From NCBI RefSeq assembly GCF_036860695.1, contig NZ_JAYKGJ010000001.1, positions 62,001-126,000 on the forward strand: 64,000 bases of DNA, read 5' to 3'. The first letter of the stretch is position 1. The number at the start of each line of letters is the position of its first letter. The stretch comes from Rosettibacter firmus. GTDB taxonomy: Bacteria; Bacteroidota; Ignavibacteria; Ignavibacteriales; Melioribacteraceae. Position numbers and translations under genes: made by a program. The notes beneath the pieces are model-generated. The model was not told the DNA's origin. It did not search any database and saw only the letters and a list, made by a program, of their open reading frames with translations. This document shows, piece by piece, positions 6,895-23,533 of this stretch.

Positions 6895-9800
6895 TTACTT
6901 ATAAATTCTTTTTAAAATTTCAACAATTTTTTCTTTAAGGAGTGGTTTTGAAATGAAATCTGTAAATCCTGCAGCAATAAAATCCTCTCTTGCTCCCGGT
7001 TGCATATATGCCGTAGATGCAATCATTGGTACATTTTTATAACCAGGAATTTTTTGAATAATTCTTAATGCATCCAGACCATTATATTCTCCCTGCAAAT
7101 TGATATCGATTACAAGAAAATCAAATCTTTTTGTTTTTAATAATGGTAGTGCAGCTTCTAAACTTGGAGCAACTTCAACAGATTTTAATTCTTTCATCTG
7201 ACTTTTAAATAAAATCTGAGAATCGATTTGATCTTCAAGGTATAAGCATGATAGTTGTGTTAGATCTAATTCTTTTTCTTTAAATTTATCAGCCTGCTCT
7301 TCTACTTGTGCTTTTTGTTGCTTTAATTCTTCTTTCTTAACTTCTTCTATTTCAATATTTAAATCCTTTTGCATAACATATTTTATTGGTATTACCAGAG
7401 CGAACTCATAATCTAAATTATCTTTCTTTATTGTTTCCTTTTTAATCGATAATAACTCAATTAATTTTTTTGTCAATCTAACAGAAAATTTTGAAAAACC
7501 ATAATTTCTTCTGCTTACACTTTCTTCTTCAGAAAATATTTCGTTTATCCCTTTTAATAATAAAGGTGAAATAGAATTTTTATTATCTCTGAAAGAAATT
7601 ATTATATTATCAGAACTTCTTTGATAAGCTGATAGATATAATGAATTTTCTTTAGTAATACTTATTACAAATTTTAATATTAATCCCAATAATGTGATAA
7701 ATTTCTGTTTATCAGTTTCAAATATTATGTTTGAATCTATTTTATCATAAATAATTTCTTTTTTAGCAATTTCTATTTCTTTGTAAATATTATTCTTAAT
7801 TTGATCCAGTATATCATCTATCTTCACATGCTCCGGTTTTAATTTTACCGATTTTTGTAATAAGGAAGCATAATCAACAGCATTATCCATTATTTGCATC
7901 AACAGTTTTTGATTTTCTTTTATAATTTCAACAGCTTCTTTTTGTTCAGAAGTAGGATTTTCAATACTTTCCCATAAATCTTGAGTAAATCCTAATATTA
8001 CATTTAATGGGGTGAGTAATTCATGAAACATGCTGGATAAAAAAGTTGAATCGATACCTGTAACTTCTTTTTTTATATCATCTAATTGTTCATGACTTAA
8101 TTTTTCTTCTTGTAATTTTAAAATCACCAGATATGATTCTATTTCACCTTGATAATTTTTTATTGGTGTTGAAATTAAAATGGCTTTTTGATAATCCCCA
8201 GTTTGTTTCTTAAGATTTACTTCTAACGTTACTTTTTTAAAAGTATTAGAATGGAAAACATTTTTATTTACCTTTGCTCTCTCTTCATCAGAAACAAGGC
8301 TGATTAAAGGACGTGCTCCCAAATCTTTCTTCGAAAATCCTAACTTTTTAGAAACATTATCATTAATATCAATAATAAAACCATCTTTATCAGTTATAAT
8401 TATCAAATCACTCGTGTTTTCATAAGCATTCTGATAGAGTTGTAATTTTACTTTTTCTTCTGCTTCCTTTGTAATATCAGTAATTATATTTAAGTGTGCT
8501 TTCTTATTTTTATATTCAATTGAAATTCTGTTTGTATTTACAATAATAAAAGAACCATCACTTCTTTTATGTCTCCATGGTCCATTTAAATTTATAAAAG
8601 ATTTGCTATCACTACTTTGAATCAGAGTTTGAATATCTTCAGGAGAAAATAAATCTGTAAGATCCATGTTAAGAAATTCATTTCTTTTATAACCATATAA
8701 CTTCAAAGCAGCATCATTAACTTCAAGGAATTTTAAATTCTCAAGGTCATATATGTATATAGCTTCTGGAATATTTTGAATAATCTGGTCATAAAAATTA
8801 TTTTGTTGATTGAGTAAAGATTCGTTCAACTCTTTCTTCATGAAAAGAATAATTGTACCTAAAAACTTACTTTGATCATATACTTTTTGTGCAGTAATCT
8901 CAAAAACAATATCTTTTGAAAGATCAAAATTGAATTTTATGGTATCTCTCTGATTTATATCAAAAGTATACTTATTGATAATTTCAACAATATTTTTAGG
9001 CAATACTTGAATTATAGACTTATTTATTACATCAGTTATATTCAATAGAGGTAGAAGTTTGTTACTATATGCTAATATGATATTCTCTGGACTTAAAAAT
9101 AAAAATGGAACAGGTAAATTTTTTAATGCAATATTATTAATTAAACTTTCACCTTCAGCTACTTTTCTTTCTTCTCTTTGAGAAAAACCTATGATTGCAA
9201 CCACTTTATTATCTAAGTCGCAAATCGGAAATTGAATTATGTTTATATTTTTTTCTAATCGACCTGCTATTGGTGTAACATTCCCTTCAACTATTACTGC
9301 ATTAGAAGTTTCTTTAATATAGTTATTGATTGTTTGATAAAGTGGTATCAAATATTTAGGAAGAAAATCTTCTTCTTTTTTATTTTCTAATTGAGATGAT
9401 GTAAATCCCAGTGCCGAAGCATAAGTCTCATTAACCAAAATAAATTTGCCAGATGGTTCTTTAATCCAGAAAAATTCATCAAGTTCATTAATTTCTTTTT
9501 GAATTTTAGCTTTTTCAATAAAGGTAAAGGGAAATGTAATTTTAATTTTATCAATAATTGAATGTATTTTTTTATTACTACTTAATTTTTCAATTTCAGA
9601 AGTAGCAATGATGAATTTTTCTACTCTCTGTTTAGACTCTGCAATTTCTACTGGTAAAATATCAATATAAAAATAAACATTATTTTCACTTCTCAATGGT
9701 GAAATAACAAATTCATAAGTTTTCTTTTCGTTTTCAAATTTTAATTCTACATAATCTCTTCCTGTTGTTTCATATTTTCTTGCATCCAGAAAAATTCTTT

Positions 9801-9984
9801 GAAGTGAAATGATTTCATCTTCATTAAAAAGTTCGAATAAATTTTTCTGTGGAGCTGCTTCAGGAATTATCTTTTTAACAGCAGGACTAATAGCTACAAT
9901 TTTTCCACTCTTATCTATTATCAGATTAAACAACTCTACCTGTGTTTTAGAATTTGTTTTACTATTTCTAATTTCTTCTGTCAT
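6895..9984 (-). CDS. Multi-PAS hybrid sensor with eroded histidine-kinase ATPase domain and intact C-terminal receiver
   Basis: 1029 residues, soluble, with no signal peptide. Four or five PAS-like domains occupy roughly residues 15-640. A HisKA helix follows with H654 in FHELLTPLN, and then a HATPase-like region at about 740-860. There the motifs are poor. The N-box Asn is lost (LILKF where NAxKF is expected), G1 reads DNKNSIS without its glycines, and the G2 box (YGFSKFSVRL) lacks GxGLGL. A Glu/Gln-rich linker leads to a receiver with D960 in VIDINLQ, acidic pair LYLED, and K1013 in ISKPL, all conserved. Inference: a pseudokinase or phosphatase whose receiver is phosphorylated by another kinase. 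The 9-base gap after the Fn3 lipoprotein suggests it belongs to the exopolysaccharide operon. Confidence 0.83.
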   Translation of the reverse strand: MTEEIRNSKTNSKTQVELFNLIIDKSGKIVAISPAVKKIIPEAAPQKNLFELFNEDEIISLQRIFLDARKYETTGRDYVELKFENEKKTYEFVISPLRSENNVYFYIDILPVEIAESKQRVEKFIIATSEIEKLSSNKKIHSIIDKIKITFPFTFIEKAKIQKEINELDEFFWIKEPSGKFILVNETYASALGFTSSQLENKKEEDFLPKYLIPLYQTINNYIKETSNAVIVEGNVTPIAGRLEKNINIIQFPICDLDNKVVAIIGFSQREERKVAEGESLINNIALKNLPVPFLFLSPENIILAYSNKLLPLLNITDVINKSIIQVLPKNIVEIINKYTFDINQRDTIKFNFDLSKDIVFEITAQKVYDQSKFLGTIILFMKKELNESLLNQQNNFYDQIIQNIPEAIYIYDLENLKFLEVNDAALKLYGYKRNEFLNMDLTDLFSPEDIQTLIQSSDSKSFINLNGPWRHKRSDGSFIIVNTNRISIEYKNKKAHLNIITDITKEAEEKVKLQLYQNAYENTSDLIIITDKDGFIIDINDNVSKKLGFSKKDLGARPLISLVSDEERAKVNKNVFHSNTFKKVTLEVNLKKQTGDYQKAILISTPIKNYQGEIESYLVILKLQEEKLSHEQLDDIKKEVTGIDSTFLSSMFHELLTPLNVILGFTQDLWESIENPTSEQKEAVEIIKENQKLLMQIMDNAVDYASLLQKSVKLKPEHVKIDDILDQIKNNIYKEIEIAKKEIIYDKIDSNIIFETDKQKFITLLGLILKFVISITKENSLYLSAYQRSSDNIIISFRDNKNSISPLLLKGINEIFSEEESVSRRNYGFSKFSVRLTKKLIELLSIKKETIKKDNLDYEFALVIPIKYVMQKDLNIEIEEVKKEELKQQKAQVEEQADKFKEKELDLTQLSCLYLEDQIDSQILFKSQMKELKSVEVAPSLEAALPLLKTKRFDFLVIDINLQGEYNGLDALRIIQKIPGYKNVPMIASTAYMQPGAREDFIAAGFTDFISKPLLKEKIVEILKRIYK

Positions 9985-9993
9985 AAGTCAAAA

Positions 9994-11256
9994 TCATGGT
10001 ATTGTAATAGATACAGTATTAGAGTAAGGTGTATAAATTCTATTAGATAATTTCTGTCTTACTCTATAATAATAAGTTTTACCCGATTCAATATTATAAT
10101 CAACAAAGCTTGTTGAATCAGATTCCACATTACCAATTTCTACAAATTTACCATAACTCCCAGCTCTTTTTTCGATAATTGTTCCCCTGGTTAATTGTAA
10201 TTTATCATTATTAGTCCATTGTAAAATTACACCCGAAGAATAATAAGCCGTAAGATTACTTGGACCATCTACATCAGTATAAAAAGTAGAAATTGAAACT
10301 TCGTTGGAATAACCACTTACTGAATTAGAAGTAAAATATGCTACTCTATATTTATAAGCTGTACTTGGTTGAACATTATTATCTTCATACTCTGTCTGAT
10401 TTGGAGATACAATATCAATTACTTCCCAGGTGTTTGTATAAGAATTCGCACGTTCAATTTTGAAGCCGAGTTCATTAACTGCAAAATCATTCCATTTTAG
10501 GATGATAAGACTTGCACCAATAGCTTCTGCTTGAAGATTCCATTGTCCACCTGGTAAATTAGAGGTACTGGCTTCATTACTAAATTCAGATTGTCCAGAA
10601 TCATTAAATGCTCTGACTTTATAAAAATAATCAATAAAAGGAGATAGTCCATCATCCGTTGTGCTTATTGTATTTACAGGAAGAGTCTTAATTTTTCTGT
10701 ACACTCCACCACCACCATCTTTTCTCCAGAGTTCAAATCCCTTTTCATTATTTGAATTATCATTCCAAAGTAGTATTGCAGAATAATCACTTGTCTTTTT
10801 AATTATTAAATTCGATGGAGCTGCAGGAGGTTTATCCTTAATAAAAATATTTTCCTGTAGTTTGCTTTCTTTTGATTTGCCTGATTTGTTATAAACTTTT
10901 ATGTAATAATTAATTGAACTGCCAAGAAGTGTAGAATCTATTTCAAGATATATATCTGGATTTGTTCCATCTTCATTCTGAGCATATCTTTTTACAAATC
11001 TATTATTAATAAATACTTCATAAAAAGATAAACCCTGTCCACCAGTTCCATCACTTGCTTTATATTCTACTCGATTTTTTCCGACCATGATTGAATCACC
11101 AGTAACTGGTTTAATAATTTCGATATTAGGAGTTGTGCTTTGCTGGGAATCAGTCAATGGTTCTACACAACTAATAAATAAAAATATTATTGATATAAGA
11201 AAATAACAGGATTTTAAATCAACAGGTGTAATAATATTATTAAAAATATTTTTCAT
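9994..11256 (-). CDS. Fibronectin type III lipoprotein
   Basis: 420 residues. A hydrophobic signal ends in a lipobox (FLFISC, C30), so it should be lipid-anchored in the envelope. An N-terminal Ig-like region (about 40-135) is followed by three Fn3-type modules at about 138-230, 235-325 and 328-420. They show typical core motifs such as SAILLWNDNSNNEKGFEL and YKVRAFNDSGQSEFSN. No enzyme motif is visible. It sits between the deacetylase-like membrane protein (35 bases) and the hybrid sensor (9 bases), so a structural or polymer-binding role in exopolysaccharide export is an inference from context. The start could be a little internal, since the stretch before the hydrophobic core is long for a lipoprotein signal. 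Confidence 0.8.
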   Translation of the reverse strand: MKNIFNNIITPVDLKSCYFLISIIFLFISCVEPLTDSQQSTTPNIEIIKPVTGDSIMVGKNRVEYKASDGTGGQGLSFYEVFINNRFVKRYAQNEDGTNPDIYLEIDSTLLGSSINYYIKVYNKSGKSKESKLQENIFIKDKPPAAPSNLIIKKTSDYSAILLWNDNSNNEKGFELWRKDGGGGVYRKIKTLPVNTISTTDDGLSPFIDYFYKVRAFNDSGQSEFSNEASTSNLPGGQWNLQAEAIGASLIILKWNDFAVNELGFKIERANSYTNTWEVIDIVSPNQTEYEDNNVQPSTAYKYRVAYFTSNSVSGYSNEVSISTFYTDVDGPSNLTAYYSSGVILQWTNNDKLQLTRGTIIEKRAGSYGKFVEIGNVESDSTSFVDYNIESGKTYYYRVRQKLSNRIYTPYSNTVSITIP

Positions 11257-11291
11257 AGCACTTTAAACTTAGCTAAAATTATCATTAATTT

Positions 11292-13190
11292 TTATTCTAC
11301 ATTTTCAAAATCGATTAACATTGAACGAGTTTCATGAGGTTCGAGTTTATCTAAATAAAAGTTAATTAACTGCTCATCTGGATTTATTTGATATTTAGGA
11401 ATTGGAGTATTTATAATATCAGATGTTATTTCAACATTTTTAAATTTTTTATTTAGATTAACCTGAATAACTAAATTTTCTGCAATTAGATCACTTGGAT
11501 TAGTAAACTCAATTGAAATTCTTCTTTTACTTCTTGCTTCATAACGAATTTCTATTTGTTGTTTTTTCTTCCACCAAGCCTGTAAATCAGTTAATGTAGT
11601 AATCCAGAAATTCTTACTTTTAGCATAACGCAGCACATCTCTGATTACAGATACATAATCAGGTTGCAATTGAAACTCTGTATGTACTTTGAAAACATAC
11701 AATCCTCCTTCAAATAAAATTCTATCTATATCTTCTTCATAAGTATATCTTTGAAAATCGATATTCGTTAGTCCATATTTTTTTACAACTTCATAATCAT
11801 CTCTCGCAGTTTTAGTAATAATCATGATCAATTTATTATTTCGCATGCGCATTTCTGGTACTGAGCGATCTGTAAGAGAATCTGTAACGAGATATTCAAT
11901 ATTTTTTGCTGCCATTACTTGAAGAGTATTGTCATTATAATAGCCATACAGAGGCATTATAGCTTTAATTTCTTTCCCTGTTAATTTTCTTAAAGTATCT
12001 ACTGCGTGACTTATATTTAAAAATTGAGTTTCTTTATTAAAAAGTTCGTTCACTGTATCTTCTGGAGATTCAATATAACCTATATCTACAATTGCACCAA
12101 TTTCTCCTAACTTTGCCAATGATTTTATTAAATTTCTATTTTTACTTGCAGTAGTAACATCAACAAAAAAAGTAGCTGGATATTGTTTAAGGTCAACAAC
12201 ATTTTTAAGAAGATTAATATTATTCACATTTGTTGTTAATGTTGGAAGTAAAATTAATGCTGCTTTATAATTAGAAGGCCATTCTTTTACAAAAGCTGTT
12301 GGTTGATACGTTAACCAGTTGATAGAATTATTAAATAATTTTTCAAAGTAGACAAAATCTTTTTGTACACCCAATACAGAATTTAATTCAAAGCCATACC
12401 AGATAAATCTACCTTTACCATAAGTACCATAAGCAATACCTGCACTTTTTTGAATTTCTTCGCGAACTAAACCAGCTTCTCGTCTGAAATCATACCAGAA
12501 ACTTACCTGTACAGTTCTTGGCTCGAGTACCTCTGCATAGATAGGTCTATCCCATGTAGCAATTTTGAGTGCATAACCTGTTGGAATTCCAGCAGTAATA
12601 GGCAGGTTACCTCTTAAAGTATGTACTTTATATGTTTCTTCTGGTTTAATTTCTTTATTGAATTTTAGTCCAAAAACTTCTGTGAAAAAATCCCACCCAC
12701 GCCATTTCCCTTCATCAGAATAAGTTGCAGGTCCACCAGTTACAAATAAACTTCCACCATTTTCAAGATATTTTTTTAATTGCACAAGTTCTTTATCGCT
12801 TAAAGATTTTGTTCCTGGCAATACAATAAGTTTATATTCGAAGTGCTCGCCTAATTCTATAGTTTGGTCTGAAATTATATCATAATTTATTTTAAAATTT
12901 CTTAGAAATCTTTTCCAAGTATCGATATTATCTTTCAACCAGGTACTTCCAGCAGGTAGCATATTTTCGGTATACTGGGAGTAGAGTATGGCTACTTTTT
13001 TTGATTTGAGGTTGCTACTAATAGATTTAATATTATCTCTGGTAGGTAAAATTTCTTTTAGATCATAATTTCCATAAATATTTTTTACTATTAGTAAAAA
13101 AACAAGAATACCTGTAATGACAAGAACAAGTCCACTCAGAAAAATAATCAAATAATTAACTCTTAAACCTCTGTTTTCAATTATCGCCAC
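11292..13190 (-). CDS. Membrane-anchored GATase-like / degenerate polysaccharide-deacetylase-like protein
   Basis: 632 residues. One N-terminal membrane helix (about 14-37) anchors a large periplasmic part. Residues about 65-290 resemble the class I glutamine amidotransferase fold found in beta-galactosidase trimerisation domains (VAILYSQYT, LIVLPGTKSLS, GGSLFVTGG). Residues about 300-545 follow the layout of a NodB-type polysaccharide deacetylase: YKAALILL strand, ATFFVD, late LTDLQAWW. However, the DD metal site and the HxxxH motif are not where expected, so catalysis is doubtful. A beta domain closes the protein. It overlaps the small membrane protein upstream by 10 bases. By position it may take the place of PgaB- or PelA-like periplasmic modules, perhaps as a binding protein. 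Family assignment is moderate. Confidence 0.62.
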   Translation of the reverse strand: MAIIENRGLRVNYLIIFLSGLVLVITGILVFLLIVKNIYGNYDLKEILPTRDNIKSISSNLKSKKVAILYSQYTENMLPAGSTWLKDNIDTWKRFLRNFKINYDIISDQTIELGEHFEYKLIVLPGTKSLSDKELVQLKKYLENGGSLFVTGGPATYSDEGKWRGWDFFTEVFGLKFNKEIKPEETYKVHTLRGNLPITAGIPTGYALKIATWDRPIYAEVLEPRTVQVSFWYDFRREAGLVREEIQKSAGIAYGTYGKGRFIWYGFELNSVLGVQKDFVYFEKLFNNSINWLTYQPTAFVKEWPSNYKAALILLPTLTTNVNNINLLKNVVDLKQYPATFFVDVTTASKNRNLIKSLAKLGEIGAIVDIGYIESPEDTVNELFNKETQFLNISHAVDTLRKLTGKEIKAIMPLYGYYNDNTLQVMAAKNIEYLVTDSLTDRSVPEMRMRNNKLIMIITKTARDDYEVVKKYGLTNIDFQRYTYEEDIDRILFEGGLYVFKVHTEFQLQPDYVSVIRDVLRYAKSKNFWITTLTDLQAWWKKKQQIEIRYEARSKRRISIEFTNPSDLIAENLVIQVNLNKKFKNVEITSDIINTPIPKYQINPDEQLINFYLDKLEPHETRSMLIDFENVE

Positions 13191-13672
13191 CTAAGGTTTT
13201 CCTCTTGTTTTTTTTCTTGCTTCACAGGTTCTTCGTAGCCTTCACCTGTATATCTAACAAATTTTCTTTTAGGTGAATATCGTTCTGCAACTGAGCCTGA
13301 AACTTGTTCATCGGTTCTACGTTGATATTCACTTCCCTGATATTGTCTTGGTGCACCACCTACAAAAGTAGGTCTCAATTCTGGACCTTTTGATTCTTCC
13401 TGTTCATAAGGAGCAGCTCGTTGATATTCATAACCATACTGTGGAGGTTGAACCACTTCAAATGTCTTTCGTTCTTGTGCTGCAACTCTTTGTTCGGCTT
13501 GTAAAGGAGCTGGTGCAATTAATTCAGCAGGAATTGCTGCAGGTTGTGGAGCTTTTTCTGCAATCCCTTTGCGTTCTCTAACTTTATATAAAATATATGC
13601 TCCAACTGCAAGAATAAAAGTCGAAATTGTTGCAACAAGTATTATTAATGATAATATTGGAATTAATTCCAT
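13181..13672 (-). CDS. Small single-pass membrane protein with Pro/Gln/Arg-rich tail
   Basis: 163 residues with one N-terminal membrane helix (about 6-29) and then a low-complexity, probably disordered, cytoplasmic tail rich in Pro, Gln, Glu, Arg and Tyr (for example PQPAAIP, EYQRR twice). GAGGT precedes the ATG. I recognise no family. It lies 15 bases downstream of the GT2 synthase and overlaps the next gene by 10 bases. Synthase-dependent systems often pair the GT2 with a small membrane subunit (PgaD in the PNAG system), so a synthase accessory role is a reasonable inference. Sequence similarity to PgaD is not apparent. Confidence 0.72.
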   Translation of the reverse strand: MELIPILSLIILVATISTFILAVGAYILYKVRERKGIAEKAPQPAAIPAELIAPAPLQAEQRVAAQERKTFEVVQPPQYGYEYQRAAPYEQEESKGPELRPTFVGGAPRQYQGSEYQRRTDEQVSGSVAERYSPKRKFVRYTGEGYEEPVKQEKKQEENLRWR

Positions 13673-13687
13673 TTCTACCTCAAATTT

Positions 13688-15106
13688 TTATTTAAACGCT
13701 TTCAATCCCTGAGTTGCCAGCATGTCTGCATTACCAATTCTTTCTAATTTACCCCAGGTCATTCTAAATCCAATAAACTCCTCAATAGTTGCCATTGCTT
13801 TTGTTACATCTATAAGTAAAATAAAAAATATTCTATAAATAATTGCATATGGAACTAAACGAAATTCTTCTCTTTCTGCAGCCACACAGTAAACTGCAGA
13901 CATTAAATCTAAAACTGCAATTCCTACCCACCATAAAAATAAAGTTATATGAATACCATATAACAAAGCTACTATTATAAAGTAAAGGTTGACAAATATA
14001 TTCATAGCAGGCCAGATAAGTGCTTCGTAAAACATTGACCACATTATAAAGCTATTACCAAAATTCAATGTGGGATTAATCAAATATCTTTTATGTTTTC
14101 TAATTGCTTGCAAAATGCCTCTTGTCCAGCGATATCTTTGTTTTAGAAGCTGGTGTATAGTAGCAGGTGCTTCTGTATATGCTATCGCATTTGGTTCATA
14201 AATAATCTTCCATCCTTTAGCTAATATTTTTAATGTAATATCAGCATCTTCTGCATAAGTATCGCTTGAATAAAATCCAGCATCTCTTAAAGTAGTTTTA
14301 CGGAATACACCAATAGGACCAGGAATGATATTTACCATTTGTAAAAATCCCTGGGCACTGCGTGCTAAATTTAAGCCTTCCAGATATTCTAAGGCTTGAA
14401 GATCAGTAATTATTTTTTTTCTATTTTGAACTTTTACATTTCCCGCAACTGCTCCAACACTTGGATCAACAAAATGTCTCATCGCAGCTTTTAATGTATC
14501 TGGTGTTAATTGAGAATCGCCATCCATACACAATACAAATTGTGCTTCGGAATATTGAATCCCAGCATTAAGTGCTTTAGCTTTACCTCCATTTGGTTTA
14601 TTAATAAGAGAAATTTTTACCATACTTGTTCTACCCTTATGATAACCCACAAGAGATTCTCCTATCTCAGCAGTGTTGTCTGTCGAACCATCATTAACTA
14701 TTATTATTTCATAATTTGGATAATCCAAATTAAGAAGAGAATCAATTGAGTTTTTCAAAATTTTCCCTTCATTATAAACAGGAACAATAATTGAAACAAA
14801 TGGATAATAACCTGGTTTGGTTTGTACAGTGTATTTGGTATTATAAAAATATGCCATAAATAAAATTCCAAAGTACCTGAATAATAAAATAAACAAAAAG
14901 ATTACTAAAGATACTATTGATGAATAAACGAATAAACCACTCCAAGTAAGAATTGTAAGCGGCATTGTAAAAATTATTGTCAAAATCAATAAAATTGATA
15001 AGAAACCAGAAATGAGAATTGTGCGTAACTTTTCTTTTGCCTCATTTCGTTTTGGTGGTTTTAATTCTCTATTATCTAATACTATTTGATATTTTAATTT
15101 ATCCAT
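13688..15106 (-). CDS. Processive membrane glycosyltransferase family 2 (polysaccharide synthase)
   Basis: 472 residues. Two N-terminal membrane helices (about 28-88), a cytosolic GT-A domain, and three or four C-terminal helices. Every motif of a processive beta-glycan synthase is present: D139 (VNDGSTDN), D195/D197 (CMDGDS), D287 with D289 (AEDAD) and Q323-R326-W327 (QRYRW), which holds the acceptor chain. It resembles PgaC and BcsA cores but has no PilZ domain, so any cyclic-di-GMP control must come from another protein. It is probably the catalytic centre of the surrounding cluster. The polymer is not identifiable from sequence alone; the nearby GH9 glucanase hints at a beta-1,4-glucan. 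Confidence 0.88.
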   Translation of the reverse strand: MDKLKYQIVLDNRELKPPKRNEAKEKLRTILISGFLSILLILTIIFTMPLTILTWSGLFVYSSIVSLVIFLFILLFRYFGILFMAYFYNTKYTVQTKPGYYPFVSIIVPVYNEGKILKNSIDSLLNLDYPNYEIIIVNDGSTDNTAEIGESLVGYHKGRTSMVKISLINKPNGGKAKALNAGIQYSEAQFVLCMDGDSQLTPDTLKAAMRHFVDPSVGAVAGNVKVQNRKKIITDLQALEYLEGLNLARSAQGFLQMVNIIPGPIGVFRKTTLRDAGFYSSDTYAEDADITLKILAKGWKIIYEPNAIAYTEAPATIHQLLKQRYRWTRGILQAIRKHKRYLINPTLNFGNSFIMWSMFYEALIWPAMNIFVNLYFIIVALLYGIHITLFLWWVGIAVLDLMSAVYCVAAEREEFRLVPYAIIYRIFFILLIDVTKAMATIEEFIGFRMTWGKLERIGNADMLATQGLKAFK

Positions 15107-15366
15107 TTACATATCTATTATTAGCTTAAGTATAAGTTCAAAATAAATGCCAGGATGAAAAATTCAATTCTGTCATTATTTTTAATAATTTCATAAAATA
15201 AAAAGTCCCATTAAAAAACAAAACCCAAATAATGACTCATATTTATACATCTGCTTAAGGAATATAAAGTATTATTTAAATTATTGCAAGATAAAGAGTT
15301 ATTAAAATAATCTAAAAGATAGGTATAAGTGAATTGTCAAAGTGATTTGTTTAATGAACATATTTT

Positions 15367-16632
15367 TTACATTTTTTTATATGCATCCATAATAGCATCA
15401 AAAAGTAATTGGGCTATTCTTTTCCCCCCAATTTGTGTAAAATGCGAAAAATCCTTTAGTGCCATTGGTGGATTTGCACTAACCCATTCAATCATAGAAT
15501 TTTCTCCTCCCATAGCTTCCCATAAATTCCAGAAAGCAACTTTAGATTTTTCAGTTATTTTCTTTTGTGCAGCAAGCAATAATGGTACATCGGGATTTGT
15601 AATAAATTTGTTTCCTACCTTCATTGTTTTATCTCCAACTCCTACCAGAATAATACCTGCATTGGGAAAAGCACGTCTTAAAAATTCGATGACATTAATC
15701 ATTTTACTTTCGTAGTAATTAAATATCTCTTTTTTAGGTGCATTAACATTTGCACCATAAGTTAAAATGATTAATGAATAATCAGAATACTTCTTGAAAT
15801 CCTGTAAAACCGATTCAGAAATTTGTAATAACGAAACTCCAGAATTTCCTGGCATTGGAAAATTATCTACATATACACCATTACCACTTTCAAGACTAAC
15901 ACCATAAATATATGGAGCTTTCCCTGAAATAAATTTCATTTCAAATGATTTTCCTGGAACATTTAAATTAATTTTCAATTCTTTTAAGGACTGTCCAGAC
16001 TCTAAATTTATATTAGTTGCATTCCCATTATTTATCTTATATTGAATTACAGAATTATTATCTGCATTGCTATAATAAATTTTTACTAAATTGAAACTGC
16101 TTGTAGATTTTAAGTTTTCTGTTGTTTCGTATTTTACCCAGCTATTAATTTTAGGTATTGCAACTGCTCCACTAATACCAAGTGGTAAATTTTCTGGATT
16201 ACGTGTAACTATAGAGACATATTTCCAATCATCTGAATATGAATGCCTGATACTGGTTTTCATTTTTATATCATTCGAAACAATTGATAAAAATCCTATT
16301 CCCTTACCTCCAAATTTTTCTTGAAAAAACTCTCTTAAATATTCTGTAATCACATCTCCCTGAATTAAAGAATCGCCATAGTGTGCTATTTTAATTATTC
16401 TATTTTTAGAATTTTTTAGTGCATTAAAAAAATTTTTTAATTGTTCTATATCGCCTGTTAATGGTACAAATTTTCCCAGTGTTTTTTGAGAAGAGACATT
16501 CGTGTTATCACTACATACAATTACATCATTTATAATTAATGGAATAGAATTGCTATTAATAACTTTTGCATAATTATTAATTGTAAACAATAATATAAGC
16601 AGTAAAAAAAACAATATATTTTTTGAATTCAT
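15367..16632 (-). CDS. Secreted SGNH/GDSL-type hydrolase
   Basis: 421 residues with an N-terminal signal peptide (about 1-22). Block I is AHYGDSLIQGD with the nucleophile at S88. A GAN motif (LTYGANVN) provides the oxyanion Asn region, and the D394-FS-H397 pair (DFSHF) completes the triad. The family deacylates carbohydrates and other esters. It lies 36 bases after the TPR/barrel gene and 260 bases before the GT2 gene. That gap shows no gene or clear hairpin and may hold a promoter. In this context it may remove or rearrange acetyl groups on the exported polymer, as SGNH proteins do in alginate and cellulose clusters; this is inferred. Confidence 0.8.
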   Translation of the reverse strand: MNSKNILFFLLLILLFTINNYAKVINSNSIPLIINDVIVCSDNTNVSSQKTLGKFVPLTGDIEQLKNFFNALKNSKNRIIKIAHYGDSLIQGDVITEYLREFFQEKFGGKGIGFLSIVSNDIKMKTSIRHSYSDDWKYVSIVTRNPENLPLGISGAVAIPKINSWVKYETTENLKSTSSFNLVKIYYSNADNNSVIQYKINNGNATNINLESGQSLKELKINLNVPGKSFEMKFISGKAPYIYGVSLESGNGVYVDNFPMPGNSGVSLLQISESVLQDFKKYSDYSLIILTYGANVNAPKKEIFNYYESKMINVIEFLRRAFPNAGIILVGVGDKTMKVGNKFITNPDVPLLLAAQKKITEKSKVAFWNLWEAMGGENSMIEWVSANPPMALKDFSHFTQIGGKRIAQLLFDAIMDAYKKM

Positions 16633-16668
16633 ATTTCCCCAGATTTTTAATTTCCAAATAGTTCCAAA

Positions 16669-19600
16669 TTAAAATATATTCCAGTACAAAGAAAAAGATA
16701 TTGAAAAAGATTGATAAACAGAATCAAACCTGTAGCTGTTTGAAAAACCAGCTCTACCATTAAGATTCAAATTTGGAACTGGTTTGTAATTTGCATCAAT
16801 AAAATATTCACTAACAAAAAAATCAATTGCAGGAACATAACCTACTTTTCCAGTAAAATTAATATTAATCCCACTTTTATTATACCATTTATATTCTCCC
16901 CAGATACTATGCGAAATAAAGTTTTGTGGAGAATAATAAAGTGAAGATACATATGCAAAATCAGAAAAATAATATTCATAACCAATAATGCCATTTTTAA
17001 AAAACTGTCTACCTACTCTAAACAGGAAATCGTTCCCTTCATTTTTATCAGAAACATTATAATAACTATAATTGATTATTAACTTCAATTGATTATTATA
17101 GAAATAACTTCCGTAAATCCTGTACAATTCTGCTTTCAATCTCGTGTTCATTAAGTAAGGTGAATAAAGAATTAATCTTGCATCATTATTTTCATAGTAT
17201 GCATTTAAAAGTAATTCATCCTGTTTTTCAAATCTTGCAGAAGCTGTTCCAATCTTTCTATTGCTTTCACCCAGAATATTTAATATTCCATAACTTCCAG
17301 ATAAAGATAATTCTTTCATAATATAAAGAGAAAGATTAGCTCTAATTGAAGTAAAATCTCTTGAGATTATTTTATTATTTATTCTTGCATTATTATAAGA
17401 AGCACCTATACCAAGATAACCAATAAACCCGCCATCTACACTTAAACCATAATTCCACAATCTAAAATTTTGATTATCACCATAAAAACTGGAATAAGGA
17501 GATATACCAATATTTGTTGGAAAAATAATACTCTTCAAAACATAAATTCCTTTTTTGAAACCATAAGGTGGAATCCAGCTTAATCTTTGTTTCAACAAAT
17601 TAATTTCATTAGTGTCTTTAGCCTGTTCAAGTAATTCATCATAAATATCTTCTGCTTTACCCCATCTATTCTGTAAAGCGTAGGCATCTGCAAGATATAA
17701 TCTTTGATTATTAATTTTTCTTTTTAATTCTTCATCTTCGGCAACTTTTAATAGTTCATTAAAAATTTTTTCTGCTCTTTCCAATTGTTTTGTTCTTACA
17801 TAAGAATTTCCCAGAGTAATTAATTTTTCGTTAAGTAGACTTAATTCTTCTGGTGTTTTTAAGCTATCTTTAATTGCATTATAAATTGAATCTGCTTTTA
17901 ATGGAAGTCCAATCATACTGAAAGCATTAGCCAAATCCATTTTTGATTCTATATCAAGTGTATCACGATTGCTTAGCTGTTCAAGTTCTTCAACTGCTTT
18001 AATACTATCTTTATTTAGATACAAAACATTTATTCTCTGAAGTGCAACCTTAAAATCAAATTCTTCTGATAAAATCTTATCATAAATTTCGAGTGCTTTA
18101 AGATAATCTTCTGCACAAGAAACTATATTGGCATATTCTATTAGTTCATCTCTTGTAGGTCCAGTTCTCTTAGAGAAATATTCTTCATATTTAGTTCGTG
18201 CATCCTGACAATTTCCTTCCATAAAAAGTTTTTCAGCTTCAGCTCGAATTTCAAAGACTTTTATTTCTTCGTATGCAGAAAGATGTAATTCATAATTACT
18301 TTCTGAACTAATTACTTCTGGATTATTAGGATCAATTTCTTTAGCAATATCTAAATATTTCTTTGCTTCTGGAAAATTCTTTTTCCAACTATACAATGAC
18401 ACTAATGATAAATATGCAGGTAATTCTCTTGGTCGATTTTTAATAACATTTAATAAATAATTTTCTGCAAGATCTAAATCAAGAACTGTCCATACAGCAA
18501 TTTGAGCTCGCAATAATTGATAATCTAAATTATCTGGATCAATTTTAAGAAGTATATTTAACTGCGAAATTGCTTTTTCCCAATCATAATTCCAGGCACA
18601 AAATTTTGCATATAAAAAGCGAACATCAAGTTCTTCATTTTCTGGTTTATCTTTAAGATATTCTTCTAAAACTTCTATTGCATTATCATAATAAAGTAAA
18701 TTGCCATAAGCTTCTGCAAGTTTAATAACAGCTTCTTTATTTGCAGGATTTTCTTTCAATATACCTGTGTAATATTCAATGGTTGAATTATAAGTGCTAT
18801 CTCTGTATGCAGTAACTTTTTGATAGAGTGTTTTAAACTCTACATCTTCTGAATATTTATTTTGTAGATACTGAAGTTGTTGATATGCTTCTTCATAACG
18901 ATTAGCATTGATTAATTCTTTTACAAGTGCAAATCTTGTTTTATCATCATCTGGATTTCTTTTTAATTGAGCATAGTATCTATCGATTGGATATACATAT
19001 TCAAAAGATCTTGGTTGATATTGTAATAAATATGCTTGATTGCGAGTTATATCCAATCCATCCTGAGCTTCTTTAAAATATGGTTTAATTTCAAGTGCTT
19101 TTTTAAAAGCATTTTCTGCAATTTTATATTTACCAAGCCACAAAGTAAAATATCCATATCTGCTCCATAATCTCCAATCATCAGGATATCGTTCAACATA
19201 AATTTTTAATATTCTTTCACCTTTAGCAATCGAACCTGTTTTAGCCAGTATTTCTGTATATCTTATAATTTCATCTGGCGAAGCATTATCATCTCTTTTC
19301 AAATATTCATCATACCATTGTTCTGCATTATTCCATTCTTCTAACCATCTATAAGATTTTCCAATTTCAAGATAGTTAAATGGATTTTTGGGATTAATTG
19401 CAATATCTCTTTTATGTCCTTCAATTTTTTGATACAGTTGTTGATGCCAAACTGAAATTACTCTATTTAAATCTTTTTTTATTTGTTCATTCGCAGGATC
19501 AAAACGAACTGCTCTTCTTAAGTCGAGTACAGCAAATTGATACTGATTTGTTTTTTCATAACACAATCCACGTAAATGGTAACCTTCAGCAAGTTGAGGA

Positions 19601-19767
19601 TGTGCAGAAATAAATTTATGAAGTTGTTCAATAGCTTCACTATACCTGCCTGCATTCATTAAAAAAAGTGCCTGTCGTTTTAAACCATCTGTCTTTGCCT
19701 GTGAATATAAAATTGATGAGAGGAATATTAAAAGTGTAAAAATTATTTTAAAACAACGACTCATCAC
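16669..19767 (-). CDS. TPR-rich protein with C-terminal outer-membrane beta-barrel (polysaccharide exporter)
   Basis: 1032 residues. A signal peptide (about 1-25) is followed by about twenty TPR-like helical repeats to about residue 740, with motifs such as AEGYHLRGLCYEK and NPFNYLEIGKSYRW. The last roughly 300 residues alternate aromatic beta-strands (GYEYYFSDFAYVSSLYY, SISFSLYWNIF) and end in Phe, typical of an outer-membrane barrel. TPR domain plus porin is the architecture of BcsC, PgaA and PelB, which guide nascent polymer across the periplasm and outer membrane. Its first codons overlap the stop of the ATPase gene by 4 bases. The export role is inferred from architecture and neighbours, and the fit is strong. 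Confidence 0.83.
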   Translation of the reverse strand: MMSRCFKIIFTLLIFLSSILYSQAKTDGLKRQALFLMNAGRYSEAIEQLHKFISAHPQLAEGYHLRGLCYEKTNQYQFAVLDLRRAVRFDPANEQIKKDLNRVISVWHQQLYQKIEGHKRDIAINPKNPFNYLEIGKSYRWLEEWNNAEQWYDEYLKRDDNASPDEIIRYTEILAKTGSIAKGERILKIYVERYPDDWRLWSRYGYFTLWLGKYKIAENAFKKALEIKPYFKEAQDGLDITRNQAYLLQYQPRSFEYVYPIDRYYAQLKRNPDDDKTRFALVKELINANRYEEAYQQLQYLQNKYSEDVEFKTLYQKVTAYRDSTYNSTIEYYTGILKENPANKEAVIKLAEAYGNLLYYDNAIEVLEEYLKDKPENEELDVRFLYAKFCAWNYDWEKAISQLNILLKIDPDNLDYQLLRAQIAVWTVLDLDLAENYLLNVIKNRPRELPAYLSLVSLYSWKKNFPEAKKYLDIAKEIDPNNPEVISSESNYELHLSAYEEIKVFEIRAEAEKLFMEGNCQDARTKYEEYFSKRTGPTRDELIEYANIVSCAEDYLKALEIYDKILSEEFDFKVALQRINVLYLNKDSIKAVEELEQLSNRDTLDIESKMDLANAFSMIGLPLKADSIYNAIKDSLKTPEELSLLNEKLITLGNSYVRTKQLERAEKIFNELLKVAEDEELKRKINNQRLYLADAYALQNRWGKAEDIYDELLEQAKDTNEINLLKQRLSWIPPYGFKKGIYVLKSIIFPTNIGISPYSSFYGDNQNFRLWNYGLSVDGGFIGYLGIGASYNNARINNKIISRDFTSIRANLSLYIMKELSLSGSYGILNILGESNRKIGTASARFEKQDELLLNAYYENNDARLILYSPYLMNTRLKAELYRIYGSYFYNNQLKLIINYSYYNVSDKNEGNDFLFRVGRQFFKNGIIGYEYYFSDFAYVSSLYYSPQNFISHSIWGEYKWYNKSGININFTGKVGYVPAIDFFVSEYFIDANYKPVPNLNLNGRAGFSNSYRFDSVYQSFSISFSLYWNIF

Positions 19768-21023
19768 CCAATAAACTTATTTAAGGGCTGATAAGCTTTT
19801 GTGGAAGAGGTTTCTGCGGATAAAACAAATTCCATCATCGATTCTGCATTTTCAATTGATTCATCTACAGTTAAATTGAATATTGATATATAATCAATTA
19901 CTGCATTTAAATAAGCAGGATCTTTGCTCGGTAAATTATTTTGTACATTGGTTATTAAATCTACAACTCCTTTTAAACTTCCTTTTACTAAAAGTACTAA
20001 AACTTTATTTTCAATTACACAAATTTTGTCTCTTTTACTGGTTGATAATCTTATTGCATTTTGTAACTGATTGATAGTTAAAAGTCCCCTTACCTGAGCA
20101 ACTGGATCTAATCTGAAGGCTACAAGATTAAATGATTGTCCTGTACTTTTATAAAGTGCTATCTGGTTATTAAGTATTAACAAAAAATCCTGATAGTTAT
20201 AAACATTAGAAAAAGCATAGGGTTCAGAAGGCATTTCTACTCTGGTAGGTGTAGTAAAATTTCTTGTTTTTGTTTTTGTAAAACTATTATCGTACTCTTC
20301 GGTTGGTAAAGGTTCTTTTATAAATTCTGTAGTTACACCTTTATTTGGAACTATTCTATATTCAGAACTGAATTCACCTTCTGTATGACCAACGTTTGGT
20401 GTAATAGTAACAATACCACCCTGTAATCGCTCTTTGCCAGTTTCTTTTTTAAGATGAATTATACCTGTAACAAATTGTGATATTCCTTCAACTATCGAAT
20501 ATGCTTTTTGTGTTGCTGGTTCACTTATAATAAAAAGACTTGTAATATCTCTCTCTTCAATTGCTTCAATTGTATGAAGGAAAGTATTTCGCAAATAATC
20601 AAGATTCCTGAAACCAACAAAAGGAGTAATTTCATCAAAAATTATTCTTGTAGGATGATATTGATTAATAACAGTTAATATATCATTAAAATATTCAACC
20701 AGATAATCATCTGGATTATACATATCATAAATTTCATTTGGAGGAGCTACACGAACAACGATTATTAAATTTTGATTCATATAATATTGAATATCGAAAT
20801 TAAGTGAGGCAGCTTGAATCATTAAATCTTTTGGACGCATAATTGTAAAATACACACACGTCTCGCCTGTTCTTGCAGACTCCAGTGCAAATTGTAAACC
20901 TATTAATGTTCTACCAGATTTTCTTGGTCCAATTAATAAGTAGCTTCCACCTCTATAGACACCACCCCAATTCTTATCTATAAATGCAAAACCAGACAAT
21001 ACCTTTTTAACAGAACCGACCAT
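19764..21023 (-). CDS. RecA/KaiC-like ATPase domain protein with degenerate GGDEF-like C-terminus
   Basis: 419 residues. The N-terminal half (about 5-230) has the KaiC/GvpD-like RecA core: IGPRKSGRT at 31-39, Walker B RIIFDE (D130, E131) and a HLKKETG arm. The P-loop lysine is replaced by R38, so normal ATP hydrolysis is uncertain. A linker (about 235-275) leads to about 278-400, whose strand and helix order resembles a GGDEF domain (FNLVAFRLD, then KRDKICVIENKVLVLLVKG), with IENK where GGDEF would be. If that reading is right it cannot make cyclic-di-GMP but might bind it. It is coupled to the TPR/barrel gene by a 4-base overlap. The GGDEF assignment is my inference from pattern only. Confidence 0.68.
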   Translation of the reverse strand: MVGSVKKVLSGFAFIDKNWGGVYRGGSYLLIGPRKSGRTLIGLQFALESARTGETCVYFTIMRPKDLMIQAASLNFDIQYYMNQNLIIVVRVAPPNEIYDMYNPDDYLVEYFNDILTVINQYHPTRIIFDEITPFVGFRNLDYLRNTFLHTIEAIEERDITSLFIISEPATQKAYSIVEGISQFVTGIIHLKKETGKERLQGGIVTITPNVGHTEGEFSSEYRIVPNKGVTTEFIKEPLPTEEYDNSFTKTKTRNFTTPTRVEMPSEPYAFSNVYNYQDFLLILNNQIALYKSTGQSFNLVAFRLDPVAQVRGLLTINQLQNAIRLSTSKRDKICVIENKVLVLLVKGSLKGVVDLITNVQNNLPSKDPAYLNAVIDYISIFNLTVDESIENAESMMEFVLSAETSSTKAYQPLNKFIG

Positions 21024-21156
21024 TTATTAATCCCAATTTTTTATATTTATGCCAATTTATATGCCAAAAAATAATTCGTTTTCATTCAATAATAAACAAC
21101 CCTGACAAAAAATATATCTAAAAATGATAACCTTGATTCATTTTAGTACATAAATT

Positions 21157-22815
21157 CTAATTCATTAAGTTACCAAAAACAAAAATTGCTGTGGCATTTG
21201 CAGAAATAGTTGGCTCGTTTGTTATATAATCCCATCTATCATCACGATAATAAATTTCATTAGTTTGAAATTGCGAATACTTATCTTCATTTTCAAATTG
21301 AATTTTAAAATCATTTAATAACTTTCGAGGTACAGGTCCAGCAGCAAAACCTCCTGGCAATTTCTTTTTAAAATATGAAATTTGATGGTGAAAATTTTGA
21401 GAATAATTTTTCCCGAATCCATATATAAAACTTATACCCCATGGATTTCTACCAAGAATAAAATCTTTCTGTAAGCAAGCCAGTGTATCATAATATGAAT
21501 CACCTGTTAATTTCTTCCATAATATATTTTGAAGAGTAATACCAAGCAAAGTATTATTACTACCCCAATTTAATACAGTACCCAAACCAAAAGTATTAGA
21601 ATTTTTATATCTATTAAATTCTTCAAGATTATTTTTAAGCAATTCCGAATAACGTTTATCATAAATCGATAGTTTATAATGTACAATTGGATTTATATCT
21701 CCCCAGCTCCACCAGAAATTATTTGAAGCAGAATCTATATAAGAAATTGCATCTTCATAATATTTTTTATTCTTAGTTGTAATAAATAATTCTATAGCAG
21801 CAAGTGCCAGTTTACCTTTGAATTCTTTATCGAGATACATACCACTTCCACTACTATCAACATCCGGCACATTGTTTCTAATTGAATAAAAATGTCTGGC
21901 AGTATTTAAGCATTTATCTGCAAACTCATAATACTGAAATTTATCACGCCATATTCTCGAAGCTAATGCAAGTGTAGCACTATAAATACCTATTAAATTT
22001 TTACCAATTCCTAAAGTTGCAGGACGATCAAAACCATATTTATCATTTTCTGGTAATCTCCATTCAGATTCGTGATCTTTTAAATCCTGAACCTGAGTAA
22101 CAAATTTTTTACCTTCATAATTACATCTTAATAACCAATCTAAACCTACTTTTGCTTCTTCTAAAATATCAGGTAAATTATTTCTGTTATTATCAAAACT
22201 GAATTTTTCTGGATTAAATTCGTAAGAAAACAAAAGCATGTATGTTGCAAATGCAGTAGTATTTAAAAATTTAATATAATCCCCTGCATCGTGCCAGCCA
22301 CCAGTTACATCTATGTTTTTATTTATTACATTCTTACCATCAATTATACTTGTAGCATCAGCTATATGACAAACATCATGTAAAAGAGGATTTGTATAAC
22401 CACATCTTTGAACCTTGAAGAACTCAAGTAAAGAAAGAGTGACATCTTTATAAATATCCTTACCAATCTTAAATGTGTAAGACTTCACCTTGTTTACTAA
22501 AATTTCATACTCTCCTTCTTGTTTCAAATCAGTAAAATCAATCAAATAATTATATTGAAAATTACCATATCCATTTGATAATGATTTAAGTGCAGTTTGA
22601 AAAACAATTTTATTTGTTTTTACATTTTTTATTAAAGCATCAATAGAATTAAGCTTAACTTTTGATATGACTAATGCAGTTTTTATATCATCAGGCAAGA
22701 AGCCAACCTGATTTAATCTTATATAAAAATCAGATTCCGCATTAATATTTTGTGAGCAATCAGGAATAAATTCCAGTAAAAAAATAATCAGGATAATTAA
22801 TTGTTTTAGATACAT
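21157..22815 (-). CDS. Secreted glycoside hydrolase family 9 (endoglucanase-type)
   Basis: 552 residues with a signal peptide (about 1-22), an N-terminal Ig-like CelD_N domain (about 30-118), and a GH9 catalytic domain. Catalytic and conserved residues are visible: D176 and D179 in GGWHDAGDYIKF, the FHH region (NFHHQI) that normally binds substrate, and the general acid E534 in NEPTISANA. GH9 enzymes cleave beta-1,4-glucans by inversion. It is the most upstream gene of the minus-strand polysaccharide block, 133 bases before the ATPase gene. A glucanase beside a polymer synthase recalls BcsZ in cellulose clusters. A role in degrading environmental cellulose is the alternative. Confidence 0.9.
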   Translation of the reverse strand: MYLKQLIILIIFLLEFIPDCSQNINAESDFYIRLNQVGFLPDDIKTALVISKVKLNSIDALIKNVKTNKIVFQTALKSLSNGYGNFQYNYLIDFTDLKQEGEYEILVNKVKSYTFKIGKDIYKDVTLSLLEFFKVQRCGYTNPLLHDVCHIADATSIIDGKNVINKNIDVTGGWHDAGDYIKFLNTTAFATYMLLFSYEFNPEKFSFDNNRNNLPDILEEAKVGLDWLLRCNYEGKKFVTQVQDLKDHESEWRLPENDKYGFDRPATLGIGKNLIGIYSATLALASRIWRDKFQYYEFADKCLNTARHFYSIRNNVPDVDSSGSGMYLDKEFKGKLALAAIELFITTKNKKYYEDAISYIDSASNNFWWSWGDINPIVHYKLSIYDKRYSELLKNNLEEFNRYKNSNTFGLGTVLNWGSNNTLLGITLQNILWKKLTGDSYYDTLACLQKDFILGRNPWGISFIYGFGKNYSQNFHHQISYFKKKLPGGFAAGPVPRKLLNDFKIQFENEDKYSQFQTNEIYYRDDRWDYITNEPTISANATAIFVFGNLMN

Positions 22816-22900: not shown

Positions 22901-23533
22901 TTACTTGGTAATTTTTTCGTATTTGAAATCTGTATCAAAAACATAATCCCACAAAGGTTGACTAACACCAAATCCTTTTAATGAATCTTGATAGTGATGT
23001 TTCATATGATGCTTTTTTATAGCTAACCAGAATTTATTATGAATATTAAAATGATGAACAGCATAATGAGTCATATCATATATTAAATACCCAACTAAAA
23101 AACCACTATAAAATGGTAAAATGTTTACTTCTCCAAATATCGATTTATATAGAATAAAAAATAATATTGCAAGTGGTATACTTACAGCTGGCGGCATAAC
23201 CAATCTTTTAGAATCTTTTGGATATGCATGGTGAACTCCATGAACTAAAAAATGAATTCGTTTACCAGTCTTACTTTTAGGTTCATAATGAAAAACAAAT
23301 CTATGCAATGTATATTCTGTAATTGTCCAGATTATAATACCAGAAATGAACAGGAAAATAAATTTCAAAACACTAATATGGTAGACTAAAAATGCATTAT
23401 AAATTAAATAAAAAATAACTGGCAAATAAATCCACAAAGGTACAGACCAATGAACTCTTGTAAACATTTCAAGGAAATTATTTTCGAATAATCTTACAGT
23501 TACATCTTCATTTGTAACAAAATTCTTTGCCAT
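22901..23533 (-). CDS. Fatty acid hydroxylase / sterol desaturase superfamily protein
   Basis: 210 residues with four hydrophobic segments and the clustered histidine motifs of membrane di-iron oxygenases: HRFVFH, HGVHH, HYAVHH and HHMKHHY. The pattern and size match FA2H/Scs7-like fatty-acid 2-hydroxylases, which hydroxylate acyl chains of membrane lipids. Enzymes of this class need oxygen, so the organism probably meets oxygen at least at times. It is separated from the upstream secreted-protein gene by a strong terminator at about 23603-23632, and is thus likely transcribed from its own promoter within about 70 bases upstream. Confidence 0.85.
   Translation of the reverse strand: MAKNFVTNEDVTVRLFENNFLEMFTRVHWSVPLWIYLPVIFYLIYNAFLVYHISVLKFIFLFISGIIIWTITEYTLHRFVFHYEPKSKTGKRIHFLVHGVHHAYPKDSKRLVMPPAVSIPLAILFFILYKSIFGEVNILPFYSGFLVGYLIYDMTHYAVHHFNIHNKFWLAIKKHHMKHHYQDSLKGFGVSQPLWDYVFDTDFKYEKITK

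Follow-up and report, generated by a model that had tools for sequence, protein, structure and literature searches.

Background

The well-studied synthase-dependent exopolysaccharide systems, namely those for cellulose (Bcs), poly-N-acetylglucosamine (PNAG; Pga), alginate and Pel, are largely driven by cyclic di-GMP (c-di-GMP), and the Pel synthase PelF belongs to the GT4 family. Here we describe a gene cluster at positions 9994-22815 of a 64,000-nucleotide stretch of the Rosettibacter firmus genome (contig NZ_JAYKGJ010000001.1, positions 62,001 to 126,000; this whole stretch is the window). On the evidence of its genes and their models, the cluster is probably a synthase-dependent exopolysaccharide secretion operon. 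We further propose, tentatively and with slightly less than even confidence, that it represents a separate class in Bacteroidota, in which a BcsE/BcsF-like pair was kept after the loss of c-di-GMP, four inactive folds, RecA*, GGDEF*, CE4* and kinase ATPase* (asterisks marking inactive or degenerate versions), have taken on the regulatory and scaffold roles, and the signal comes from a PAS/receiver protein instead of a cyclic dinucleotide. If true, a BcsE/BcsF-type module could work without its ligand and pair with another synthase, and the cluster would point to a matrix-polymer machine in the Ignavibacteriales, for which none was found described.

In the account of the type II Bcs system of E. 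coli given in PMC7439463, BcsE is a RecA*-REC*-GGDEF* protein with a KaiC-like fold that has lost Walker A, and BcsF draws it to the membrane. According to PMC11470070, BcsF crosses the membrane once and forms a dimer, and its cytosolic tail supplies an extra strand to the RecA* sheet of BcsE. PelA is portrayed in PMC12022489 as a hydrolase followed by ThuA/IFT52-like, CE4/CE18-like and beta-rich domains, and Pel is also reported to use a degenerate GGDEF protein, PelD (PMC7439463).

The present cluster is assembled from Pga-, Bcs- and Pel-like parts, and departs from each of these systems in at least one defining test. With type II Bcs it shares a probable RecA-like pseudo-ATPase with a degenerate GGDEF-like domain, a gene for a small single-pass partner, a putative TPR-barrel exporter and a glucanase gene in the operon, but its regulator has no REC*, its synthase is not BcsA-like, BcsB, PilZ and intact GGDEF or EAL domains were undetected in the genome, and no other Bcs protein was seen among the ten genes scanned. 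The features in common with Pga are a PgaC-like GT2, a putative TPR-barrel exporter and a CE4-fold envelope protein, whereas PgaD was undetected, the CE4-fold protein has neither catalytic residues nor a hydrolase domain, and the cluster adds a GH9 enzyme and a BcsE-like regulator. Pel has the same order of GATase/ThuA-like, CE4-like and beta-rich domains in PelA (as outlined in PMC12022489); in contrast to Pel, the synthase of the cluster is a GT2 and not a GT4. No description of the cluster was found in the literature, in a search limited to open-licence PMC papers that is not proof of absence; the main text of PMC7112194 contains no mention of Ignavibacter, Melioribacter, Rhodotherm, Salinibacter, Chlorobi or Bacteroidetes.

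Organization and conservation of the gene cluster

Eight open reading frames (ORFs), all on the minus strand, fill 9994-22815, and a ninth (6895-9984) lies on the same strand, mostly with short gaps between them. In transcription order the eight encode a GH9 glycoside hydrolase, a KaiC-like protein, the TPR-barrel exporter, an SGNH hydrolase, the GT2 synthase, a small membrane protein (SMP), a GATase/deacetylase-like protein (hereafter the scaffold) and an Fn3 lipoprotein, with intergenic gaps, from the ORF coordinates, of 133, -4, 36, 260, 15, -10 and 35 bp. The stop of the KaiC-like gene and the start of the exporter gene share 4 bp, the second overlap (10 bp) is that between the SMP and scaffold genes, and the widest gap in the cluster (260 bp) lies ahead of the GT2 gene; 9 bp separate the Fn3 gene from the ninth, hybrid histidine-kinase-like gene. 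A check of ORFs and Pfam matches found every gene named in the original prediction in its place on the minus strand, mostly close-spaced.

We sampled 198 genomes of the phylum and searched them with the KaiC-like protein and, likewise in 198 genomes, with a profile of the scaffold. The KaiC-like protein matched 50 genomes at 1e-5, only 31 of them at 1e-30 or better, and the 19 weaker matches look, by sequence, like general KaiC-type proteins. The scaffold profile matched 29 genomes at 1e-10, all of which belong to the 31 that encode a close KaiC-like protein; G030 and G179 have the latter protein, and the profile search detected no scaffold in them. Among the matches listed, both proteins are found in 22 of 22 same-order genomes (families f1 and f2, own genome included), and no same-order genome of these two families is without a KaiC-like or scaffold match. 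The core, consisting of the KaiC-like protein, exporter, GT2, SMP and scaffold, lies on one contig in 21 of these 22 genomes, a count that includes L051 with its weakly matched exporter (37 bits); in G156 the core genes are divided between contigs. The core is also present, on a single contig and with its gene order kept, in five genomes outside the class (G013, G034, G085, G131 and G183). Three of these (G013, G034 and G131) share a genus, and their SMP is a longer protein that was identified from its place and membrane helix and not by search. Contig ends prevent a check of the cluster in G096 and G135. Relatedness among the genomes inflates these recurrence counts, yet the gene order recurs in families as distant as f1 and f22/f34. 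Family f40, which belongs to the taxonomic order too, surfaced only in the GGDEF search, and the same-order cluster counts cover f1 and f2.

A second survey covered titled genome records, namely the best 80 of 141 relatives, with more distant lineages lying outside the scan. These records are titled Melioribacter, Stygiobacter, Ignavibacterium, Ignavibacteria and kin, Chlorobiota/Chlorobiaceae, Bacteroidetes or simply as 'bacterium' bins; two loci come from a single genome titled Tenericutes. Presence was counted by score limits that we set and on plus-strand ORFs only. Downstream of the KaiC-like gene, the 59 titled loci with at least 9.9 kb of flank encode the TPR protein in 57 cases, GT2 in 54, SMP in 55, scaffold in 53, Fn3 in 51, SGNH in 24 and the kinase in 21 (the kinase often falls beyond the flank). 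Upstream, the 60 loci with at least 3.5 kb of flank have GH9 in 58 and a fatty-acid hydroxylase in 30. The general hallmark of a synthase-dependent system, a processive membrane GT2 with its motifs intact (23 of 23 homologues) encoded together with a TPR exporter, is found across most of these loci. The original prediction had named the recurrence of GT2, TPR-barrel, RecA-like and GATase-like proteins as its own test, and this set does recur, both in sampled genomes of the order and in some that belong to other classes. The cluster is real and conserved.

Variations in copy number are also seen. The KaiC-like gene occurs in tandem copies upstream of the exporter gene in L056, L120, L123, L124, L127, L132 and L138, and a second, diverged scaffold copy lies beside the first at L035:18881-20000, L037:19190-20000, L057:13206-14891, L058:5215-7032 and L060:5400-6980. 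A search for the KaiC-like gene on plasmids returned 76 records, none of which covers 80% of the query, the rows listed covering the RecA half only.

The exporter and the scaffold

The putative outer-membrane exporter (16669..19767, minus strand; Pfam TPR 2.8e-32) has a signal-like N-terminus, a TPR superhelix that extends to about residue 720 and a C-terminal domain of about 300 residues. TPR_19 matches were recovered in all 23 aligned homologues (23 of 27 ORFs, without L033, L034, L046 and L050; for the barrel part 21, without L044 and L053 too). The 23 Pfam matches of the window protein are all to TPR or other helical-repeat families and to no barrel family, the corresponding check of the homologues covers the 25 commonest of 85 Pfam families, and a profile of the C-terminal part matched no barrel among solved structures. 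The C-terminal domain is a likely beta-barrel on the indirect evidence of its strand pattern: its count of amphipathic strands was reached by 2, 0 and 0 of 200 shuffles at three thresholds, compared with 0, 2 and 19 for the known barrel of E. coli BcsC and 27, 21 and 30 for that of PgaA, and with 135, 155 and 153 for the exporter's own TPR part and 66, 38 and 30 for PgaB as controls. The exporter and E. coli BcsC have a YYSPQ motif in common, a tryptophan near the exporter C-terminus is nearly invariant, and the final residue is aromatic or leucine in most members.

The scaffold (11292..13190, minus strand) is a membrane-anchored, periplasmic protein whose two halves have Pfam matches of 1.8e-5 to 1.3e-4, below the curated cut-offs. 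Its AF2 model (pLDDT 86.1, pTM 0.85) comprises a transmembrane (TM) helix, a GATase1/ThuA-like domain, a CE4/NodB-like fold and a C-terminal run of strands, barely probed by the fold search, that is predicted to form a beta-sandwich. The last three domains of PelA correspond in order to those of the scaffold. Foldseek places the N-deacetylase half of human NDST1 first by E-value (9f6z, E 2.9e-12, 561 columns) and PelA tenth (9cgy, E 1.8e-10, 704 columns). These are the longest matches among the rows listed, with TM-scores of 0.24-0.32 (0.30 for NDST1) and rmsd of 13-17, and so the individual domains match PelA and NDST1 better than their arrangement does. Comparison by VIA gave the CE4 structure 3rxz (Z 26.2, rmsd 2.4, 238 aligned) and the GH42 structure 5xb7 (Z 21.2, rmsd 2.8, 203 aligned). 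Unlike PelA, the scaffold has an N-terminal TM anchor and a low whole-chain TM-score to that protein, and no glycoside hydrolase catalytic domain was found in it by Pfam or in the model; unlike NDST1, it has neither a sulfotransferase nor catalytic residues. The CE4 metal ligands are missing in all 23 aligned scaffolds (23 of 31 ORFs; L044, L050, L053 and five second copies were left out). On this ground an active deacetylase was rejected, and the deacetylase-like label given to this protein in the original prediction is in that respect not supported.

Accessory hydrolases and the Fn3 lipoprotein

The first gene of the cluster (21157..22815, minus strand) encodes a GH9 glycoside hydrolase with a CelD_N Ig-like domain (Pfam PF00759, 1.6e-77), probably active and periplasmic or secreted. 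The catalytic Asp pair is present in 20 of 20 homologues and the acid Glu in 19, the exception being a shorter ORF, and its nearest solved structures are endoglucanases. The SGNH/GDSL hydrolase, an esterase or acyltransferase (15367..16632, minus strand; Pfam 0.0034, below the curated cut-off), has both of its motifs, GDS and DxxH, in all 8 homologues scored. It is encoded in 8 of the 22 same-order clusters, that of the window included, and is an optional member. We take the residues scored in the GT2, GH9 and SGNH proteins to be the catalytic ones of their families; the motif counts for the kinase, GH9 and SGNH proteins (19, 20 and 8 rows) are over rows above score and length limits that we set. 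The last of the eight genes (9994..11256, minus strand) encodes an Fn3-repeat lipoprotein (Pfam fn3 4.3e-12) with a lipobox-like LFISC read from the sequence.

The synthase and its product

The GT2 (13688..15106, minus strand; Pfam GT2 1.8e-32) is a membrane-embedded, processive, PgaC-like synthase. Its aspartates (D, DxD), ED and QRxRW are invariant in all 23 aligned homologues (23 of 27 ORFs, leaving out L031:17829, L046, L050 and L053). It shows 33% identity and 153 bits to E. coli PgaC but only 24% and about 68-70 bits to BcsA, and it scores 119 bits against its own paralogue and 221-232 bits against four plasmid GT2s. The latter were fetched from the best 25 plasmid relatives listed, and all three that were scanned are fused to a polysaccharide deacetylase, that of Prevotella additionally to GH18. 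A 17-row tree separates BcsA and the paralogue from the rest (support 98/98); it contains ten of the 23 cluster rows and seven others, the cluster rows do not group with support into one clade, and long branches lead to the references. Among the references compared, the GT2 is by these scores nearest to the deacetylase-fused GT2s and PgaC and furthest from BcsA. The top-scoring solved structures are hyaluronan synthases, which decides nothing on the product.

The GT2 profile matches 11 places in the genome, the cluster among them. The best of the others (C1:957 kb) was considered as a second exopolysaccharide synthase and rejected, as the 15 kb fetched there contain no exporter, scaffold or KaiC-like gene. 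A 2112-aa ORF at 56627-62965 of the window has at least two GT2-like stretches.

As to the polymer, we tentatively favour, at rather less than even confidence, an amino-sugar (GlcNAc-type) product of a Pga- or chitin-like system in which an ancestral deacetylase was turned into a scaffold. The best NCBIfam model for the GT2 is PgaC_IcaA, and the deacetylase and GH18 fusions of its plasmid relatives, together with the CE4 fold inside the scaffold, point the same way. However, the score against that model, 212 bits, is about half the equivalog cut-off of 422.3, no PgaD was found in any of 13 genomes (a family that matches only 2 of 14 control genomes, over the cut-off in one), and the named PDB matches of the GH9 are glucanases, cellulases and cellobiohydrolases. 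GH9 enzymes that act on glucosaminides exist. A polymer of some other kind is slightly less probable. A divergent Bcs machine making cellulose, with the GH9 standing in for the BcsZ hydrolase, is unlikely. The endoglucanase-like GH9, encoded upstream in nearly all titled loci, the YYSPQ motif shared with BcsC and the BcsE/BcsF-like pair described below are consistent with such a machine, whereas the GT2 scores run the other way, BcsB was detected in none of 13 genomes at E 0.01 (the same profile matches 2 of 14 controls), PilZ is likewise 0 of 13, and a GH9 homologue was unmatched in the five distant core clusters. The beta-1,4-glucan of the original prediction rests mainly on the GH9, while the GT2 scores closer to PgaC and the deacetylase-fused GT2s; as a product it is a weak candidate and was not upheld.

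The KaiC-like protein and the small membrane protein

The KaiC-like protein (19764..21023, minus strand; Pfam KaiC 3.9e-25) was modelled by AF2 with a pLDDT of 82.5, and its N-terminal domain aligns with KaiC by VIA over 217 residues (Z 27.5, rmsd 2.5). The Walker lysine is replaced by arginine in 27 of 29 aligned members (29 of 32 ORFs; L046, L050 and the second L056 copy were left out), and on these sequences the protein is probably a pseudo-ATPase. The C-terminal domain is likely to be GGDEF-like: hhalign against a profile of 31 GGDEF domains, all intact and used after first, smaller targets that were mostly negative, gave a probability of 88.8 (E 2.5e-6, 127 columns), compared with at most 1.3 for 20 column shuffles and 1.2 for the reversed alignment. 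In the model its topology is a-b-a-a-b-b-a-a-b, which includes the cyclase core b-a-a-b-b-a-b as PMC7439463 gives it. The GGDEF motif itself is gone, and no REC*-sized domain lies between the RecA* and GGDEF*-like domains in the model of the window protein. The original prediction had listed a RecA/KaiC-like ATPase in place of the usual partners of such systems; what we find is a probable pseudo-ATPase that continues into a likely, degenerate GGDEF-like domain (RecA*-GGDEF*), a design that resembles the known Bcs regulator BcsE and is not alien to these systems. That it is a working ATPase or timing protein tied to the cluster by genome order only is quite improbable, as its KaiC fold, the lysine kept in two members and the close genes of G030 and G179, where no scaffold was detected, are set against the replacement of that lysine in the other 27, which ruled out such a role as our principal interpretation, the presence of the KaiC-like gene in all 29 scaffold genomes and its overlap with the exporter gene.

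The SMP (13181..13672, minus strand; no Pfam match) is a single-pass membrane protein. In a set aligned by eye, its N-terminal membrane helix is near-invariant (MELIPIL...YILYK(V/I)RE) and a C-terminal motif is conserved (KFxRYTxEGYxEP...LRWR), whereas the middle is variable in sequence and probably disordered. This layout resembles that of BcsF. In G179, where the scaffold is undetected, an SMP-like ORF, identified by eye only, directly follows the KaiC-like gene, as would be expected of a partner pair.

c-di-GMP machinery and the kinase-like protein

Family searches of the whole genome detected no PilZ, EAL, BcsB or PgaD, so the absence of PilZ, BcsB and PgaD noted in the original prediction extends beyond the cluster. 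The sole GGDEF match (G000:C2:36440-36901, L171) has no GGDEF motif. For these reasons c-di-GMP control of the cluster is unlikely, as far as the families searched go; they could fail to pick up cyclases or receptors of other kinds. PilZ was found in none of 12 cluster- or KaiC-bearing genomes besides our own, and 8 of the nine distant genomes have no GGDEF at E 0.01. In a sample of 148 genomes, which need not contain all 29 scaffold genomes, GGDEF was matched at 1e-20 in 50, none of them among those 29.

In the near set, 28 of 29 genomes have a GGDEF match, typically in a single protein about 620-650 aa long. None of the 28 full-length copies inspected (L171 and L183-L209) has the motif, one having a chance GGD elsewhere; a pseudo-cyclase outside the cluster is thus conserved across the near genomes.

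Downstream of the Fn3 gene lies the gene for a PAS-rich hybrid histidine-kinase-like protein with a receiver domain (6895..9984, minus strand; Pfam PAS, HisKA and Response_reg). The H-box His and the receiver Asp are kept in 19 of 19 homologues, but no HATPase_c was found in the window protein by Pfam and the N-box is unlike the canonical one; the ATP-binding half looks degenerate in sequence. The gene lies downstream in 20 of the 22 same-order clusters, adjoining the Fn3 gene in 19; of the remaining two clusters, L043 is cut off by the end of its contig and L055 shows a rearrangement.

Proposed mechanism and its appraisal

From its family and invariant motifs, the GT2, sitting in the inner membrane, would polymerise a nucleotide sugar and push the chain into the periplasm. 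There the scaffold (GATase*/CE4*) probably binds the chain and passes it from synthase to exporter without deacetylating it, a role that parallels the one proposed for PelA toward PelB, and the TPR-barrel protein would move it across the outer membrane. The GH9 may trim the chain, and the SGNH hydrolase, where present, may edit its acyl groups. By analogy with BcsF and BcsE, the SMP would hold the cytosolic RecA*-GGDEF* protein at the membrane, its conserved tail perhaps adding a beta-strand to the RecA* sheet, and the RecA*-GGDEF* protein would gate the synthase. The input signal is probably not c-di-GMP, as the searches of the host genome detected neither a working c-di-GMP enzyme nor PilZ; a candidate source is the PAS/receiver pseudo-kinase encoded next to the cluster. 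The proposal predicts that the SMP tail binds the RecA* sheet, that the scaffold does not deacetylate and that the GT2 polymerises without c-di-GMP.

Several observations count against parts of this proposal. No homologues of the GH9, SGNH, Fn3 or kinase proteins were matched in the five distant core clusters. The barrel call, likely as it is, rests on composition and one motif, with hhalign probabilities of only 13 to BcsC and 1.6 to PgaA. Two of the 29 KaiC-like proteins retain the Walker lysine. Smaller hhalign targets for the C-terminal domain gave a probability of 38.4 for DgcT of E. coli, 0.2 for the degenerate Ignavibacteriales GGDEF set, 0.1 for PdeK and 0.2 for BcsE. An RxxD at the I-site position is absent from all 20 same-order members and kept in 8 of nine distant ones, so that nucleotide binding stays possible in the latter. 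In the distant genome G183 there is a single GGDEF-EAL protein in which both motifs are intact, and the near relative G204 encodes an additional short protein with AGDEF (L210, G204:C247:22231-22458) that may be intact. Finally, E. coli BcsE was unmatched by the KaiC-like profile (hhalign probability at most 0.5), and homology to BcsE is therefore not shown. With hhalign giving no support for either domain, we rejected that homology and left the comparison as architecture only; the resemblance is one of design, not demonstrated descent. In the full-length Foldseek and VIA lists the KaiC half dominates, and the absence of BcsE and PelD among the matches listed excludes nothing.

Neighbouring genes

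L210, mentioned above, sits on a small contig and is possibly mobile or foreign DNA. In the window, the kinase-like gene is followed by a methylguanine methyltransferase gene (6343-6846, minus strand), and the fatty-acid-hydroxylase gene recorded in half of the titled loci lies just upstream of the GH9 gene, at 22901-23533. Further upstream, 23691-26186 and 26364-28562 encode Fn3/Ig-rich proteins with C-terminal matches to type IX secretion sorting domains.

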